Shown: positions 881 to 42,447 of the stretch, piece by piece
Position numbering within the stretch: position 1 is the stretch's first letter
Layout of the letters: each line of letters begins with the position of its first letter
The notes under the pieces: model-generated
Database searches by the model: none
What the model saw: only the letters and a program-made list of their open reading frames with translations
Told to the model about the DNA's origin: nothing
NCBI GenBank assembly: GCA_021324635.1
Contig: JAJPIS010000057.1
Span: 1 to 48,328 of the forward strand
DNA from: Gemmatimonadota bacterium
GTDB taxonomy: Bacteria; Gemmatimonadota; Gemmatimonadetes; Gemmatimonadales; Gemmatimonadaceae
Reading direction: 5' to 3'
DNA length: 48,328 nucleotides
Program-made: the position numbers and the translations under genes

Positions 881-1630
881 ATGACCCCGTGGGTGCGGCG
901 ACTGCTCGTCGCCAACGTCGTCGTATTCTTTCTCCAGCAGACGGTCCCGTCGACGACGATCGCGCTGGCGTTCGTGCCGGCGCTCGTGCTCGTCCGCCCG
1001 TGGACGATCGTCACCTACATGTTCCTCCACGGGTCGTTCTGGCACATCCTGTTCAACATGCTGGCGCTCTACTGGTTTGGTCCGCGTGTCGAGGAGCGGC
1101 TCGGCGGGCGTCAGTTCCTGGCGCTCTACTTCGTGAGCGGAATCGCCGGGGCGCTGTTCTCGCTCCTGACCTCGGCGGCCGCGATCATCGGCGCCTCGGG
1201 GGCGATCATGGGCGTGATGGTCGCCTTCGCGCGCTACTGGCCGCGCGAGCGCCTCTACATCTGGGGCGCCGTGCCCGTCGAAGCGTGGCTGCTGGTGCTG
1301 ATCTACGTCCTGCTCGACCTCGGCGGGTTCGGCGCCGGGATCGCGCACTTCGCGCACCTGGGCGGTGCCGGAGCGGGGTTCCTCTACTTGCGCCTGACGG
1401 AGCTGCTCTCGCCGGCCCGGCGCTGGCGGCGGAAGCTCGAGGTGCGGCCCCCGGCTCCCGCGTTCGCCGACGGCGAGCAGCTCCGGCGCTGGCGTGACAT
1501 CCGCCTGGACGACCTGCACCCGATCAACCGCGACGAGGTCGTCCGCCTGCTCGGCAAGGTGCAGCACACCGGGACGAAGAGCCTGACGCCCGACGAGCGC
1601 GCGACGCTCGACCGGTTCGCCTCGAAATAG
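881..1630 (+). CDS. Rhomboid family intramembrane serine protease
   Basis: A 249-residue polytopic membrane protein with the rhomboid core. The catalytic serine is Ser106 in GASGAIMG and the catalytic histidine is His159 in AHFAHLGG. The oxyanion-type residues sit in HILFN (His55, Asn59) after the WR-like loop. About six hydrophobic segments fill residues 5-170; the remaining 80 residues form a charged cytosolic tail. Rhomboids cleave transmembrane substrates within the lipid bilayer; the substrate here is unknown. The first ATG is used, giving an N-terminus typical of compact bacterial rhomboids. Downstream lies a repeat-rich gap shared convergently with the next gene. Confidence 0.9.
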   Translation: MTPWVRRLLVANVVVFFLQQTVPSTTIALAFVPALVLVRPWTIVTYMFLHGSFWHILFNMLALYWFGPRVEERLGGRQFLALYFVSGIAGALFSLLTSAAAIIGASGAIMGVMVAFARYWPRERLYIWGAVPVEAWLLVLIYVLLDLGGFGAGIAHFAHLGGAGAGFLYLRLTELLSPARRWRRKLEVRPPAPAFADGEQLRRWRDIRLDDLHPINRDEVVRLLGKVQHTGTKSLTPDERATLDRFASK

Positions 1631-1743
1631 GGGCGGCCTGGCGGTCGCCCGCTGATCGCAATCCACATGGATGCCCGGCCCGGCATTGCACGCGGCCCGG
1701 CGTTGGCGGAACGGCCCGCGGGACATGGCGAACGGCCAATGCC

Positions 1744-2172
1744 GGGCGGCATGAATGCCGGCCCCGCATTGGTGCGGGATGCGAATCGCGGGCGGCATGA
1801 ATGCCGCCCCTACGCGCGGGGCACGTTGGCCTGCGCCGCGACGACACCATCATCCCGCCCGCCGTTCCCGGTGCCGCGGGCATCCACGCCCCCACACGCG
1901 CGCTCGCACCGCCACGACGGGCTCACCATCGTGCCCGGTCGTTGCGTTCCCGGTACCAGGGGCAAATCGCGGAGCGATTTGCCCCTGGTACCATCCAACA
2001 AACCCCGTTCCTTCGGTTGCCGCGGGACGCGGGCGGCGGGACACGGCGAACGGCGGGCGGCATGAATGCCGCCCCTACGCGCGGGGGCGCGCGGTGCGGG
2101 CGGCGGGACACGGCGAACGGCGAACGGCGGGCGGCATGAATGCCGCCCCTACGCGCGGGGCGGCCTGGCGGC
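1744..2172 (-). repeat. Composite dispersed repeat, locus 1 (reverse orientation)
   Basis: This gap between convergent genes has no credible gene. It holds four copies of a near-perfect palindrome GGGCGGCATGAATGCCGCCC (1744-1764, degenerate on its right arm; 1790-1809; 2055-2074; 2129-2148), three followed by CTACGCGCGGG. Read on the minus strand, 2031 down to 1744 is collinear with 41852-42222: a CGCGTCCCGCGG module, a long hairpin, a conserved spacer ending near GTGGATGCCCGCGGCACCGG, then the palindromes. The last two palindromes lie in a direct duplication of period 74 bp. The block stops a few bases before the stop codon of the GlcG-like gene. Confidence 0.85.
1952..1992. repeat. Perfect 19-bp hairpin inside repeat locus 1
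   Basis: GGTACCAGGGGCAAATCGC at 1952-1970 is followed by a GGA loop and its exact reverse complement at 1974-1992. The pairing is perfect over 19 bp. A homologous 18-bp hairpin with the same GGA loop lies at 41890-41928. There is no T-tract, so it is not a classical intrinsic terminator. Confidence 0.9.
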
Positions 2173-2179
2173 CGCCCCG

Positions 2180-2695
2180 CTACGGCGACGACGTGCGCTG
2201 GCCGTGACCCAGGGCGTCGAGGCCGGCCTGGGCAATGATCTCGTCCTGGTCGGACGACATCCCGCTCACCCCGATCCCGCCGATCACCTTGCCATCGGCC
2301 GCGATCGGCAGCCCACCCGCGACCGGGACCACGCCGGCGAGCGCCACGAGCCCGGGGTTCCCTTTGACGGCATCGGCCAGCGCACGCGTGGGACGCTTGA
2401 AGCGGGCGGCCGCCCGGGCCTTGGCGATCGCCACGTCGAGACTGCCGGTCTGCACATCGTCGATCCGGTGGAAGAGGATCAACTCTCCGCCGACATCGAC
2501 GACCGCGATCGCCACCGTCCAGCCGCGCTTGTGCGCCTCCGATTCGGCGGCCGCGGCCATCGTCTTCGCCCCGTCGAGGCTGACGACCTTGGCATCGAGG
2601 AACTGCGCGCGGGCCGCCACGGGGCGGAGCGCCGCCACGGCGAGAAGCGACAGAGCGGCAGTCAGCGTGCGGTGACGGCGGGGCTGAAGGGACAT
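2180..2695 (-). CDS. Exported GlcG/HbpS-family (DUF336) heme-binding-like protein
   Basis: A 171-residue protein with an Arg-rich N-terminus and hydrophobic stretch ending in ARA (about residues 8-29), read as a Sec signal peptide; the mature part would be periplasmic. The rest matches the GlcG/HbpS family: an alternating AVVDVGGELILFHRIDD strand region, KARAAARFKRPT, then the glycine-rich GGLPIAADGKVIGGIGVSG and a SSDQDEIIAQAGL helix. Family members bind heme or small molecules or accompany glycolate and redox enzymes; the ligand here is unknown. The start at 2695 is chosen because it places the signal peptide at the N-terminus; the longer reading adds a Gly-rich artefact. Confidence 0.8.
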   Translation of the reverse strand: MSLQPRRHRTLTAALSLLAVAALRPVAARAQFLDAKVVSLDGAKTMAAAAESEAHKRGWTVAIAVVDVGGELILFHRIDDVQTGSLDVAIAKARAAARFKRPTRALADAVKGNPGLVALAGVVPVAGGLPIAADGKVIGGIGVSGMSSDQDEIIAQAGLDALGHGQRTSSP

Positions 2696-2843
2696 GTCGG
2701 GCGCTCGAGGACGGAAGAGGGAGAGGAGGTCCAACCAACCGCGAGCGCCCAAGCTACGCGGACCGCCCGGAAGCACGCCAGGGCGAGGCGCCGGTGGGGC
2801 GCCCCCGCCCCCGCCCCCACCCCCGTCCCGAGCGCGCACTCGG

Positions 2844-2963
2844 AGGTCCTTCGTCGGCGACGACCAACGTCGCCCCGCCCAGCGGGTAGGTGCGGAGCAG
2901 ATCGATGTGCAGCAGATCCTGACGCAGGTCGTTCCGGACCGCGAGCGGGGTCCAGCACATCAC
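2844..2963 (-). pseudogene. Relic of an ABC-exporter permease
   Basis: A 40-codon island in an otherwise non-coding 560-bp gap. On the minus strand it reads VRNDLRQDLLHIDLLRTYPL followed by GGATLVVADE. From memory this resembles the region of putative ABC-exporter permeases where the chain reads roughly NDLR-DLL-DLLRTYPLRG. Flanking codons in the same frame are low-complexity Gly/Arg/Pro with no homologous continuation. It is called as a decayed fragment; a chance resemblance is possible. Confidence 0.4.
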
Positions 2964-8056: not shown

Positions 8057-8512
8057 TCAGTCCCGGTAGGGTGAGTCTTCGTCCGAGCGGATGGCGGCGC
8101 TGAAGGCGCCGAGCGGGCCGGCGATCTCCTCGGCGAGCCCCACCAGCATGCCGCTCAGATGGTCGCCGTAGGCGAGGAGCCGCGCGGCGCGGGTCCGGTC
8201 AGCGAGCAGGAAGGCCAGTAGCGGCGTGTCCGCCTTGGCCGCGTTACACATGCGGCAAGCGAGCACGAGGTTGTCGCGGCGGTCGTACGCGAGCTGGCCG
8301 CGGCGCGGCGTGACGTGGTCGAGGGTCATCGACCGGGCAGCCCCGGTGCGTCCACAGTACGCGCAGACGGGTCCGTGGCGATCGAGGAGCCACTGGCGCG
8401 TGGCGGTATACGCCGCGCGGCCAGTCGGTTGCGACGTGAGGCGTGGCGGCGCCGACCGGGGGGCTCGAGCTCGCGAGCTGCGCCGCCGGCGGCGTGAAAC
8501 AGACTTTCTCAT
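8057..8512 (-). CDS. HNH endonuclease domain protein
   Basis: A 151-residue protein: a basic Arg/Ser-rich N-terminus (1-30), then an HNH domain with CAYCG (Cys50, Cys53), the catalytic LDHVTP (Asp65-His66), and the second zinc pair in CRMCN (Cys86, Cys89) followed by AAK. The C-terminal 50 residues are helical and unassigned. Such stand-alone HNH proteins are common; a DNA substrate is known for the fold but not for this protein. A TATCTT hexamer lies eight bases before the ATG on this strand and no Shine-Dalgarno is seen. Confidence 0.82.
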   Translation of the reverse strand: MRKSVSRRRRRSSRARAPRSAPPRLTSQPTGRAAYTATRQWLLDRHGPVCAYCGRTGAARSMTLDHVTPRRGQLAYDRRDNLVLACRMCNAAKADTPLLAFLLADRTRAARLLAYGDHLSGMLVGLAEEIAGPLGAFSAAIRSDEDSPYRD

Positions 8513-8608
8513 CCCGAGGAAAGATAGCGCCGACCGGACCCGTTCGCGGTAGCCGGCGGTCCTCCAGTTGCGTGGTGCAGCCCCATCGCAGCCAAGACGA
8601 GAGGCGAC

Positions 8609-10651
8609 ATGCATTGGTCTCGACTTCTGTTCGGGCGGCCGTTGCGCACGAGCGAGGAGCAGGGCGAGCGGATCGGAACGCTCCGGGGGGTGCCCGTGCT
8701 GGGGCTCGACGCCCTGGCGTCGGCCGCCTACGGCCCCGAGGCGGCGCTCACCGTCGCGCTTCCACTCGGCCTCGCCGCCACACGGCTCATCGAGCCGATC
8801 GTGGCCGCGATTATCGTCGTGCTCGCCCTGGTCGCGCTCTCCTACCAGCAGACCATCGCCGCCTACCCGGACGGCGGCGGCTCGTACACTGTCGCCTCGC
8901 AGAACCTCGGCCGGATGGCCGGCCTGGTGGCGGCGAGCGCGCTCGCCCTGGACTACATCCTCAACGTCGCGGTGGCGATCGCCGCGGGGGTGGGCGCCAT
9001 CGTGTCGGCCGCGCCGACGCTTCTCCCGCTCACGCTCTGGCTCTGCCTCGCCATCCTCGCCGGGCTCACGATCGTGAACCTGCGCGGCGTCCGCGAGGCG
9101 GGGCTCGTGTTCATGGCCCCGACGTACCTCTTCGTCCTCTGTCTCGGCGGCGCGATCCTGCTCGGGGTCGTGAAATCCATCGCCGCCCACGGGCATCCGC
9201 TTCCGATGAGCCCCCTGCCGCGCCCGCGGCCGATCGCCGGAACGGCCCTCGGCGCGTGGCTCCTCCTCCGCGCGTTCGCGAGCGGCACGACGGCCATGAC
9301 GGGCATCGAGGCCGTGAGCAATGGCGTGCCGCTCTTCAAGGAGCCGCGCACGGTACGCGCGCAGCGGACGCTCGTGACGATCGCCGCCATCCTCATCCTG
9401 TTGCTCGCCGGGATCGCGTTCCTGTCGCGCAGCTACGGCATCGCGGCCACGCCGCCGGGCCGGGCCGGCTACGAGAGCGTGCTGTCGCAGCTCGTCCGCG
9501 CGGTTGCCGGCCGCCATGCGTTCTACTACGTCACGATCGCATCGGTCGTGACCGTGCTCTGCCTCTCGGCGAACACGAGCTTCGCGGACTTCCCGCGACT
9601 CTGCCGGCTGCTGGCGCTCGACCAGTATCTCCCCTCGGGCTTCGCGCACCGTGGGCGCAGGCTCGTCTTCTCGGCGGGCATCATCGTCCTGGCGCTGCTC
9701 GCGGGCGCGCTGTTGGTGGTGTTCGGCGGTGTCACCGACCGCCTCATCCCCCTCTTCGCCATCGGCGCGCTCCTCGCGTTCACGATGTCGCAGTGGGGGA
9801 TGGTCGCCCACTGGCGGCGGCGCCGGGGTGCGCACGCGCGGCGCTCGATGCTGCTCAACGGCGCCGGTGCCGTCGCCACGTCGGCGACCGTGCTCGTGGT
9901 CGCGGCGTCGAAGTTCACCGAGGGCGCGTGGATCACGGTGCTCGTGATCCCGCTCTTCATTGCCCTGCTGCTCCGCATCCACACGGCCCACGTGCGAGTC
10001 GACCGCGAGCTGGCGGCCGCCGGGCCGTTCGACATCGCACCGCTGCCACCGCTCGTCGTCGTCCTGCCGATCAAGCGCCTGGACCGCGTGGCGCGCAAGG
10101 CCCTCCGGCTGGCGATGCGGATCTCCCCCGAGGTGGAGGTGATCCACGTTCTCACGGACGAGCCACGGATGGAGGACCTCCGCCGCCGCTGGACGGAGCT
10201 GGTCGCGAGCCCGGTGCGGGCCGCCGGCTATCCCCCGCCCACGCTCGTGTCCGTACCGTCGGCGTACCGCGAGTTCGTGCGCCCGGTCGTGCGACACATC
10301 CGCTCGCTGTGCCGCGTGCATCCCGACCGGTATGTCGCGGTGGTCATCCCCGACGTCGTGGAGCGGCGGTGGTACGACTATCCGATCCGCAACCTGCGGG
10401 CGCTGATGCTGCGGACCGCGCTCCTGCTTCGCGGCGGCCCGCACGTGCTGATCGTCGACACGCCGTGGCACCTGCGCGGCGGGCCGCGCTCGGAGCAGGA
10501 GCAGCCACTGGGCACCACTCCGCGGCCGACGGCACGGCACGCCACGGCACACGCCGCCGCGGGGTCGACGCCGCCGCGTGGCGAGTGGGCGGCCCGCGGC
10601 GCCGACGAATCCCGAACGGAATCTCGCGTGGACGGGTCAGGAGCGGCTTAG
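8609..10651 (+). CDS. APC-superfamily amino acid/potassium permease with cytosolic domain
   Basis: A 680-residue membrane protein. Residues 20-455 carry about 12 hydrophobic segments of the APC fold, with LGLDALASAAYGPEAAL and YPDGGGSYTVA near the N-terminus, typical of large amino acid or K+/APC transporters. Residues 470-620 form a soluble alpha/beta domain (LVVVLPIKRLDRVARKALRL, HVLTDEP) resembling a universal-stress-like module, then a disordered tail. The ATG follows GAGAGGCGAC. The 3' end overlaps the convergent hydrolase gene by 15 bp. Confidence 0.87.
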   Translation: MHWSRLLFGRPLRTSEEQGERIGTLRGVPVLGLDALASAAYGPEAALTVALPLGLAATRLIEPIVAAIIVVLALVALSYQQTIAAYPDGGGSYTVASQNLGRMAGLVAASALALDYILNVAVAIAAGVGAIVSAAPTLLPLTLWLCLAILAGLTIVNLRGVREAGLVFMAPTYLFVLCLGGAILLGVVKSIAAHGHPLPMSPLPRPRPIAGTALGAWLLLRAFASGTTAMTGIEAVSNGVPLFKEPRTVRAQRTLVTIAAILILLLAGIAFLSRSYGIAATPPGRAGYESVLSQLVRAVAGRHAFYYVTIASVVTVLCLSANTSFADFPRLCRLLALDQYLPSGFAHRGRRLVFSAGIIVLALLAGALLVVFGGVTDRLIPLFAIGALLAFTMSQWGMVAHWRRRRGAHARRSMLLNGAGAVATSATVLVVAASKFTEGAWITVLVIPLFIALLLRIHTAHVRVDRELAAAGPFDIAPLPPLVVVLPIKRLDRVARKALRLAMRISPEVEVIHVLTDEPRMEDLRRRWTELVASPVRAAGYPPPTLVSVPSAYREFVRPVVRHIRSLCRVHPDRYVAVVIPDVVERRWYDYPIRNLRALMLRTALLLRGGPHVLIVDTPWHLRGGPRSEQEQPLGTTPRPTARHATAHAAAGSTPPRGEWAARGADESRTESRVDGSGAA

Positions 10652-11746: not shown

Positions 11747-11799
11747 GCGCACAGGGGCCTCGGGCAAGAACGGGAAACGTGGGCGGGACGGATACGCCG

Positions 11800-11998
11800 G
11801 CGTCCCGCGGCCACCAAAGGAACGGGATTGTTGGCGATGGTGCCAGGGGCACCCGTAGGGGCGGCATTCATGCCGCCCGCTACTCCCATTTCGCACCGAT
11901 GGCTGGCCCGGCGTTCACGCCGTTTGCCGTTGGCGTTCGGCGTTCATGTCGCCCGCGATTCGCATCCCACACGGATGCCGGCCGGCCCCCGGATGCCG
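11800..11998 (+). repeat. Composite dispersed repeat, locus 2 (deleted copy)
   Basis: In the divergent gap between the hydrolase and GNAT genes. The CGTCCCGCGGCCACCAAAGG module (11801-11820) is followed by a shrunken hairpin GGTGCCAGGGGCACC (11839-11853) in which the inner stem found at the other loci is missing. Directly after it comes the palindrome GGGCGGCATTCATGCCGCCC (11859-11878) and degenerate copies to about 11998. The central spacer module of the complete copies is absent. Confidence 0.75.
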
Positions 11999-25132: not shown

Positions 25133-25162
25133 TCCGCCCGCAGCCGCACCGCTCACCCGCGG

Positions 25163-25771
25163 ATGACGGGCACGCCACCGACCGGCACGCCACCGACCGG
25201 CACGCCACCGACCGGCTCGCCACCGACCGGCTCGCCCGCGAGCCGCACATCGGCATCGGCCGGTGAGCAACCCGGCGAGGCGAGGGCGCGCGCCGAGCAA
25301 CAACGGCTCGTGCTCCAGGTCGTCCAGCCCGGACTGCTCGGGCTCATGGACGGCTCGGTCTCGACGCTCGCACCGCTGTTCGCCGCCGCGGCGCTCACCG
25401 GCCGCCCGCTCAGCGCGTTCTACGTCGGCCTCGCCGCGTCGGTCGGCGCCGGCATCAGCATGGGACTCGCCGAAGCGCTGTCGGACGACGGCGCCGTCAC
25501 CGGCCGCGGCAACCCCATCGTCCGCGGCGCGATCACCGGCGGTGGCACGGCCCTCGGCGGGATGTTCCACACGCTGCCGTTCCTCATCCCACACCTCCGC
25601 ACGGCACTCTCGATCGCGTACGTGGTCGTGGTCGTCGAGCTGGTCACGATCGCCTACATCCGCTTCCGATACATGAAAAGCCCTCTCCTGCGAACGATCG
25701 TCCAGGTGATCGGCGGCGGCGCCCTCGTCTTCCTCATCGGCATCTGGCTGGGCCGCCTCGGCGCCTCCTAG
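25163..25771 (+). CDS. VIT-type iron transporter domain protein (MbfA C-terminal-like)
   Basis: A 202-residue membrane protein. Residues 1-45 are a disordered Thr/Pro/Gly repeat. From residue 50 it matches the membrane half of MbfA-type iron exporters: [20 protein letters not shown], then [36 protein letters not shown] and two more membrane segments. MbfA normally carries an N-terminal ferritin-like domain of about 140 residues, missing here. Iron or manganese export is the best guess. The start is uncertain: the ATG has no clear ribosome site, and a GTG near 25312 would drop the repeat. Confidence 0.8.
25166..25240 (+). repeat. Five 15-bp tandem repeats in the VIT-like gene
   Basis: Units close to ACCGGCACGCCACCG repeat five times in exact 15-bp register, coding [10 protein letters not shown] pentapeptides. 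Copy-number changes would stay in frame and alter only the length of the disordered N-terminus. Confidence 0.85.
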
Positions 25772-40573: not shown

Positions 40574-40760
40574 CGGGCGGCACGATTGCCGCCCCGGCGC
40601 CGGCGCGGGATGCCGGATGCCGGCCGCGTAACATGCCGGGTCGGGCGTCCGTGCGGGATGCGAGCCGCGGGCGGCATGAATGCCGCCCCGACGCGCGGCG
40701 CCGCGGACGCGGCATGAATCCCCCCGACGCACGCCAACCACCGGCGGCGTGAAAGCCGCC
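40574..40760. repeat. Dispersed palindromic repeats, locus 3 (upstream of mqnD)
   Basis: Two palindromes of the family (GGGCGGCACGATTGCCGCCC at 40574-40593; GGGCGGCATGAATGCCGCCC at 40669-40688) plus degenerate copies (GCGGCATGAATCCCCCC; GGCGGCGTGAAAGCCGCC near 40742-40759). The hairpin and spacer modules are absent here. The last copy ends about 22 bases before the mqnD start. Confidence 0.75.
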
Positions 40761-41621: not shown

Positions 41622-41889
41622 CCGGCGCGGTGTGACCCAACCGTCGGGGCGGCATTCATGCCGTTCGCCGCCCGCCGTTCCGCACATCATGCCGCGCCGC
41701 ATCCGGCGGCCCCGGCGTAGGGGCGGCATTCATGCCGCCCGCGATTCGCACCCCGCACGGATGTCTGGCCCGGCATTCATGCCGCCCGCCGTTCGCATCC
41801 GCACGGACGCCTGGCCCGGCATTTCGGGCGGTCGCCGTTGGCGGAACGGCCCGCGTCCCGCGGCCACCAAAGGAACCGTTTTTGTTGAT

Positions 41890-41928
41890 GGTGCCAGGGG
41901 CAATCGCGGAGCGATTGCCCCTGGCACC
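41890..41928. repeat. Perfect 18-bp hairpin inside repeat locus 4
   Basis: GGTGCCAGGGGCAATCGC (41890-41907), loop GGA, and the exact complement (41911-41928). Compared with 1952-1992 one base pair is changed from A-T to G-C on both arms and one A-T pair is lost from both arms, while pairing stays perfect. Confidence 0.9.
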
Positions 41929-42035
41929 GGGAACCGCACCGACCGGGGCGGGATGGTGGACCCGTCGCGGCGGGGCCGGGCGCGTGTGGGTGCGTGGATG
42001 CCCGCGGCACCGGGAACGTGCGCGGACCGTAGGGG

Positions 42036-42222
42036 CGGCATTCATGCCGCCCGCGATTCGCATCGCACACCAATGCCCGGCCCGGCATTCATGCCGCCCG
42101 CGATTCGCATCGCACACCAATGCCCGGCCCGGCATTCATGCCGCCCGCCGTTCCCATCCCGCACCAATGCCGGGACGGCATTCATGCCGTTCGCCGCCCG
42201 CCGTTCCGCACATCATGCCGCC
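42036..42222 (+). repeat. 47-bp minisatellite
   Basis: Units starting CGGCATTCATGCCGCCCGCG begin at 42036, 42083, 42130 and 42176 (periods 47, 47, 46 bp). The first two are identical; the third and fourth diverge, and a degenerate fifth follows. Each unit contains the GGCATTCATGCC palindrome core. Confidence 0.88.
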
Positions 42223-42447
42223 CGCGTCCCGCATCCCGCACCGATGCCGGGACGGCCGCGTTCCTGGCTGCATCGGCGGCCGGTCATGGGCGCTTTCCAA
42301 TCCGGGCGGCCCCGCCCGCTCGGCGTCGGCCGGCAGGAGCGCGCGCCGTTGGGAGTTACAGGCAGATTTCGGCGCGCGTCCTAGAGCGTGGCCCCACAGA
42401 GGATCCCCCCCCGCCCGGAGCATCGCGTCTCGCGCTCCAGAGGCTCC

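Follow-up and report, generated by a model that had tools for sequence, protein, structure and literature searches.

A GTAG-REP mosaic with an embedded hairpin module in the genome of a Gemmatimonadota bacterium

The window analysed here, a stretch of 48,328 nucleotides that constitutes contig 92 of a 4.09-Mb host genome assembled in 127 contigs, carries two inverted copies of a composite repeat, in which a short palindromic box and a long perfect hairpin are placed between palindromes of the GTAG-REP kind. We consider it likely that the composite is a mosaic of the BIME type (bacterial interspersed mosaic element), built of GTAG REPs with an embedded lineage-specific module, which is dispersed by the resident RAYT (REP-associated tyrosine transposase) and whose hairpin arms owe their identity mainly to template switching. 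The composite is read as a BIME-type mosaic with a passenger module because the precise joins at GTAG fit the chemistry of TnpA-REP proteins. Against this explanation, the score of the RAYT lies just under the cut-off of the family model, and the module is located between same-strand REPs, unlike the usual inverted doublets.

The first-pass annotation had placed the two copies at 1744–2031 and 41852–42222, and a repeat finder independently recovers complementary pairs between these regions: 1863–1901 with 41980–42018 (39 nt, 97% complementary), 1996–2034 with 41849–41887 (87%), and 1760–1827 with 42015–42082 (88%). The proposed module order was also found in both copies, namely a CCGCG-TCC-CGCGG box, GGAAC, a hairpin with 18 or 19 perfect pairs and a 3-nt loop, a spacer with GTGGATGCCCGCGGCACCGG, and then CGTAGGGGCGGCATTCATGCC. 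The proposed limits were too narrow, as REPs also precede the box in both copies, and copy 1 has a REP of a second type at each of its ends. The complete order is REP(s), box, linker with GGAAC and a T-rich stretch, hairpin, tail beginning with GGGAAC, and REP array, and it extends over 1627–2183 on the minus strand (copy 1) and approximately 41643–42256 on the plus strand (copy 2) (Table 1). The hairpin loop had been given as GGA, which is true of copy 2; copy 1 has TCC on its minus strand. All four loci that had been listed in 48 kb exist, but they are not equal: at 11.80–12.00 kb the module is cut inside the hairpin, and at 40.67 kb there is a REP without the module. Copy 1 is flanked by a rhomboid gene and, convergent to it, an HbpS-like gene, and its bounding REPs provide both stop codons: the TAG at 1628–1630 ends the rhomboid gene (881–1630), and the TAG of the opposite REP ends the HbpS-like gene (2180–2839). 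In same-genus relatives, the end of the rhomboid gene lies one or two codons later than in the window. Copy 2 has a menaquinone-biosynthesis gene and a gene for a GAF-domain histidine kinase as its neighbours.

Table 1. Features of the composite repeat and related loci in the window
Feature	Position	Strand
Copy 1, bounding REP, second body type (ATAG + GGGCGGCCTGGCGGTCGCCC)	1627..1650	+
Copy 1, GTAG-REP unit, 62 nt, module-downstream, foot at 1813	1752..1813	-
Copy 1, tail/spacer, begins GGGAAC	1814..1951	-
Copy 1, hairpin, perfect 19 bp, TCC loop on the element's strand	1952..1992	-
Copy 1, box CCGCG-TCC-CGCGG (small palindrome) and linker with GGAAC	1993..2033	-
Copy 1, GTAG-REP palindrome, box-upstream, foot 2078	2055..2078	-
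Copy 1, second GTAG-REP palindrome, box-upstream, foot 2152	2129..2152	-
Copy 1, bounding REP, second body type (GTAG-C-GGGGCGGCCGCCAGGCCGCCCC)	2157..2183	-
Truncated module: box, linker, 5' hairpin arm; break inside hairpin, joined to GTAG foot at 11855	11799..11854	+
GTAG-REP unit fused to the truncated module	11855..11916	+
REP palindrome, GTCG foot, without hairpin module	40669..40692	-
Copy 2, first upstream REP palindrome, GTCG foot (41643)	41643..41666	+
Copy 2, GTAG-REP unit, box-upstream, foot 41717	41717..41778	+
Copy 2, box CCGCG-TCC-CGCGG and linker with GGAAC and T-rich stretch	41851..41889	+
Copy 2, hairpin, perfect 18 bp, GGA loop	41890..41928	+
Copy 2, tail/spacer, begins GGGAAC, contains GTGGATGCCCGCGGCACCGGGAACG	41929..42028	+
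Copy 2, GTAG-REP unit, module-downstream	42029..42090	+
Copy 2, tandem palindrome units, ~47 nt, without GTAG foot	42091..42256	+

The palindrome is a GTAG-tagged REP. GTAG is present directly 5' of 112 of the 172 palindromes selected by their body (108 of the 130 with an exact body), and most of those without it follow TGCC or GCCG instead, which resembles the internal units of tandem arrays. Upstream of the foot, the information profile of the 112 GTAG REPs stays near 0.1 bit per position, apart from 0.84 at position -1 (a C); with the foot it becomes high, and it falls to background beyond position 62; as it was anchored on the palindrome body, positions 1–24 are high by construction, while positions 25–62 are not. 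This profile was used instead of a permissive all-against-all blastn search for element ends, which was discarded owing to over-extension through GC-rich DNA. The foot is preceded by 94 distinct 20-mers, including the box, a hairpin arm, the second REP type and the tail, and thus different sequences were joined exactly to GTAG. Twelve coding-like ORFs terminate at the TAG within the foot, with none in the other two frames; GTAG REPs often supply a TAG stop to flanking ORFs (Di Nocera et al., PMC3733652). Some variation was seen around the foot. Runs of GTC or GTT stand directly 5' of it at loci L121 (C25:3316), L067 (C85:771), L049 (C123:27058), L050 (C18:38636) and L036 (C96:32576), and where a gene ends there its product has a C-terminal run of serine or leucine; slippage or priming at the foot is possibly involved. 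A further palindrome, GGGRCATCGTGATGYCCC, with changes on both sides, lies directly 5' of several feet (L033, L039, L051, L061, L042 and others), and one REP, CCGTAGGGGCGGCATGAATGCCGCCCCTACGG, has GTAG at both ends (L059, C126:780–807).

The suggestion of a high-copy genomic family was borne out, with about 250 palindromes and about 70 modules in the genome. A 221-bp query taken from the composite gave 206 genomic matches, many of them REP or hairpin fragments, with a best E value of 6.5e-93 among the other copies. The covariance model of the box-hairpin module gave 91 matches, corresponding to approximately 70 separate copies after removal of opposite-strand hairpin echoes. The palindrome TAGGGGCGGCATTCATGCC occurs 248 times with at most two mismatches, and a longer REP pattern occurs 260 times with at most three, which is above the 100 copies that mark high-copy GTAG REPs; the pattern read backwards occurs 0 times. 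E values down to 6.5e-93, the ~70 module copies and the ~250 palindromes against none reversed exclude a chance origin of the family. An artefact of the draft assembly is extremely improbable. Several contigs do end inside the element (e.g., C1, C52, C55, C59, C63, C75, C113, and C115), but contig ends in repeats are expected of short-read assembly, and dozens of copies are located inside contigs with different unique flanks and different adjoining genes.

The sequence loci examined, approximately 240 kb fetched from the host genome, allowed the arrangement of modules and REPs to be compared. A same-strand REP was found within -400/+600 nt of 47 of 50 strictly detected modules, and the nearest REP is on the strand of the module for all 41 upstream REPs and for 35 of the 37 downstream ones. 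The module order is therefore conserved genome-wide, as had been predicted, and the similarity is not confined to short palindromes. Distances from the module to the upstream REP cluster at 54–56, 68–74 and 99–118 nt, the latter two classes being offset by about one palindrome unit of 46–47 nt. Comparison of palindrome positions with those of the covariance-model matches revealed many REPs distant from any module; hence, the module accompanies REPs, and REPs occur without the module. In the 45 multi-REP clusters, the outermost feet point outward in 14, inward in 1 and along the same strand in 30. It might be argued that the box-hairpin module is an independent, non-autonomous MITE-like element, moved by another enzyme and preferring REP arrays as landing sites. 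The many REPs without a module and the few modules without a detected REP would agree with this, and REP-targeting insertion sequences are known (PMC1525189). However, the strand agreement and the quantised upstream spacing are unlike the outcome of random landing, though both could arise from a site-specific inserter, and no long autonomous relative with these ends is present in the fetched loci. We regard such an independent element as quite improbable.

The second debatable issue is how the hairpin has remained perfect. Across 43 aligned copies, 98.5% of the cells are paired over the two helices and 99.0% in the long stem, which contains only two G-U cells. Changes on both sides affect 7 of the 18 stem pairs (81 cells compared with a shuffle mean of 21), these counts being inflated by shared descent among the copies. 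Extra base pairs appear symmetrically in both arms (AAAT/ATTT; GGGGG/CCCCC). The loop occurs in both orientations relative to the same flanks: GAC/GTC in 12 and 8 copies, GAA/TTC in 6 and 7, and GGA/TCC in 2 and 2. The loops of the two window copies, TCC in copy 1 and GGA in copy 2, are inverted relative to the rest, and two copies that are 99% identical outside the hairpin differ at all three loop bases. Template switching between the arms of an inverted repeat homogenises the arms and inverts the spacer (PMC8604942). We infer that this process fits the stems and loops better than slow compensatory change via G-U intermediates.

Perfect stems could also be caused by selection for a DNA or RNA hairpin, for instance, as a 3'-end stabiliser of mRNA or a barrier between convergent genes. 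The both-side changes in perfect stems are compatible with it, REPs elsewhere lie mostly downstream of genes (PMC3733652), and 16 of 50 modules are located between convergent and 6 of 50 between divergent genes; these orientation counts are suggestive, as they come from a crude codon-based gene caller that called 68% of the window coding. On the other side, the stem has so few G-U cells, the loops are freely inverted, and the module was found in none of the relatives searched. No intrinsic terminator (stem with T tract) was found in either copy, and the promoter scan was negative. No match at gathering score was obtained with Rfam in five element loci, where only sub-threshold matches occurred, and in the window it identified only a tRNA. 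Selection for the structure is thus an unlikely cause of its perfection, and with regard to host benefit, selfish or neutral DNA in 3' flanks is taken as the default. The mosaic reading with template switching is followed below. The variation of stems and loops is a natural record against which the correction of bacterial palindromes by template switching could be tested.

The trans-acting RAYT whose search had been advised was found as a single gene between inverted REPs. It is the only Y1_Tnp gene of the genome, located on contig 75 (~2458–2961, minus strand), and it encodes a 168-aa protein with the HUH motif PDHVHA. The protein scores above the cut-off of PF01797 and reaches 79.2 bits, just below the cut-off of 80, with the NCBIfam REP_Tyr_transpos model NF047646. 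A PDB search with the single sequence gave no match; a two-sequence RAYT profile matches solved structures of ISDra2-type TnpA chains and of TnpA-REP (4er8). The flanking REPs have feet at 2302 (+) and 3177 (-), facing outward, and a full composite is less than 1 kb away from the gene. In the same-genus genome G002, a RAYT 45% identical to this one lies between inverted copies of a different palindrome, for which exact counts are about 18 in G002, 6 in G001 and 0 in the genome of the window; one-mismatch counts are larger but partly doubled, as symmetric sites match both strands. The palindrome being multicopy there and absent here, RAYT and REP differ together between species. At G002 loci L157, L162 and L165, a second type of GTAG-foot palindrome, GTAGGGGCCGGTCGCGACCGGCCC, was observed beside GGCCGTTCTCGAACGGCC repeats.

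The approximately 250 REPs were probably spread by this single RAYT, a TnpA-REP of the Y1/HUH class, of which they are the likely substrates. Studied relatives of this enzyme bind REP hairpins in single-stranded form, with GTAG as their guide. TnpA-REP proteins of other species cleave ssDNA near the REP palindrome and rejoin the ends, and in other REP-RAYT pairs GTAG takes part in recognition and in the choice of the cleavage site (PMC8266576). By analogy, the RAYT described here would cleave at its REPs, and other sequences joined at GTAG would give new arrangements. Copying of a REP-module-REP stretch may then have carried the module as a passenger. During replication, template switching inside the folded strand would be the main process that keeps the hairpin arms identical, and it would flip the loop too. 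It can be speculated further, with considerable doubt, that the module represents a new REP passenger and a self-correcting palindrome (arms recopied from each other, loop flipping), amplified about 70-fold in one lineage via same-strand REP capture and RAYT copying. The hairpin module may itself aid the spread, for example, by exposing ssDNA at stalled forks to a single-strand transposase. As the spread of REPs is poorly understood, a species-specific expansion with long passenger modules and visible GTAG joins could show which DNA a RAYT joins.

The suggestion that no named composite of this order exists holds for a part of it. The palindromes are of the described GTAG-REP/BIME kind with a resident RAYT; the embedded hairpin module with a fixed head-to-tail order was not found described in the literature searched. 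Similar to E. coli BIMEs, the composite is a mosaic in which further short conserved motifs separate the REPs, and in which REPs form arrays, alternate in orientation (inverted REPs included) and are associated with a RAYT; here, the motifs are arranged as REP-module-REP and, in contrast to BIMEs, the internal one is an 18–19-bp near-perfect hairpin with a tail. BOX elements of Streptococcus pneumoniae are modular intergenic repeats with reiterated modules, presumably unrelated in sequence to the present family. The composite does not conform to the REPIN, in which an inverted doublet is the predominant repeated unit: the nearest REPs around the module are on the same strand, and the clusters are mostly arrays. 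As in GTAG REPs and REPtrons (Nunvar et al., 2010, PMC2817692; Di Nocera et al., 2013, PMC3733652), the palindromes of the family follow a GTAG foot, exceed 100 copies, form clusters and provide neighbouring genes with the TAG of the foot as a stop, and a single RAYT gene is enclosed by inverted REPs. Unlike those, the REPs described here enclose a long hairpin module, mostly in head-to-tail orientation, a layout said to be rare or absent, and the present sequence family was detected in a single species. According to PMC3733652, most REP families form inverted doublets, and head-to-tail pairs are rare. REPs regularly tied to a second palindromic repeat are known from A. variabilis (GTAG-15), T. 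roseum (GTAG-23) and H. neapolitanus (CGTC-1) (PMC3733652), but there the REPs are inserted within the palindrome, whereas the present hairpin is intact and stands at set distances from the REPs on either side. What is unusual is that the head-to-tail order is fixed and that the hairpin is self-consistent, the REP/BIME kind itself being already described.

The profile search that had been proposed for the genome and its relatives gave the ~70 module copies in the genome and no match of the covariance model in 40 relatives under strict filters. Among 394 sampled genomes of other Gemmatimonadota, with up to three mismatches allowed, the box had one isolated match and the REP five isolated matches in four genomes, with no family of either. 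No additional long hairpin was found beside the REPs at 19 REP loci of same-genus genomes. The exact hairpin core gave no match in a collection of 84,980 genomes, from which the genome of the window may be left out, or in a viral collection, and a REP scan of viral contigs was negative. The same-genus genomes contain the flanking genes of the window only in diverged fragments that are scattered over different contigs, and no empty-site footprint could therefore be read. The literature searched contained no paper about Gemmatimonas REPs. The best reading of these data is that the REP mosaic is species-specific. Two features of the window apart from the composite can also be mentioned. An 831-codon frame at 8060–10552 (-) has an HNH endonuclease domain (PF01844) near its C-terminus and is overlapped by a plus-strand frame of longer or comparable length, which the crude gene caller favoured; at 25150–25248, a 15-bp tandem repeat, GACCGGCACGCCACC, is present in about five copies.
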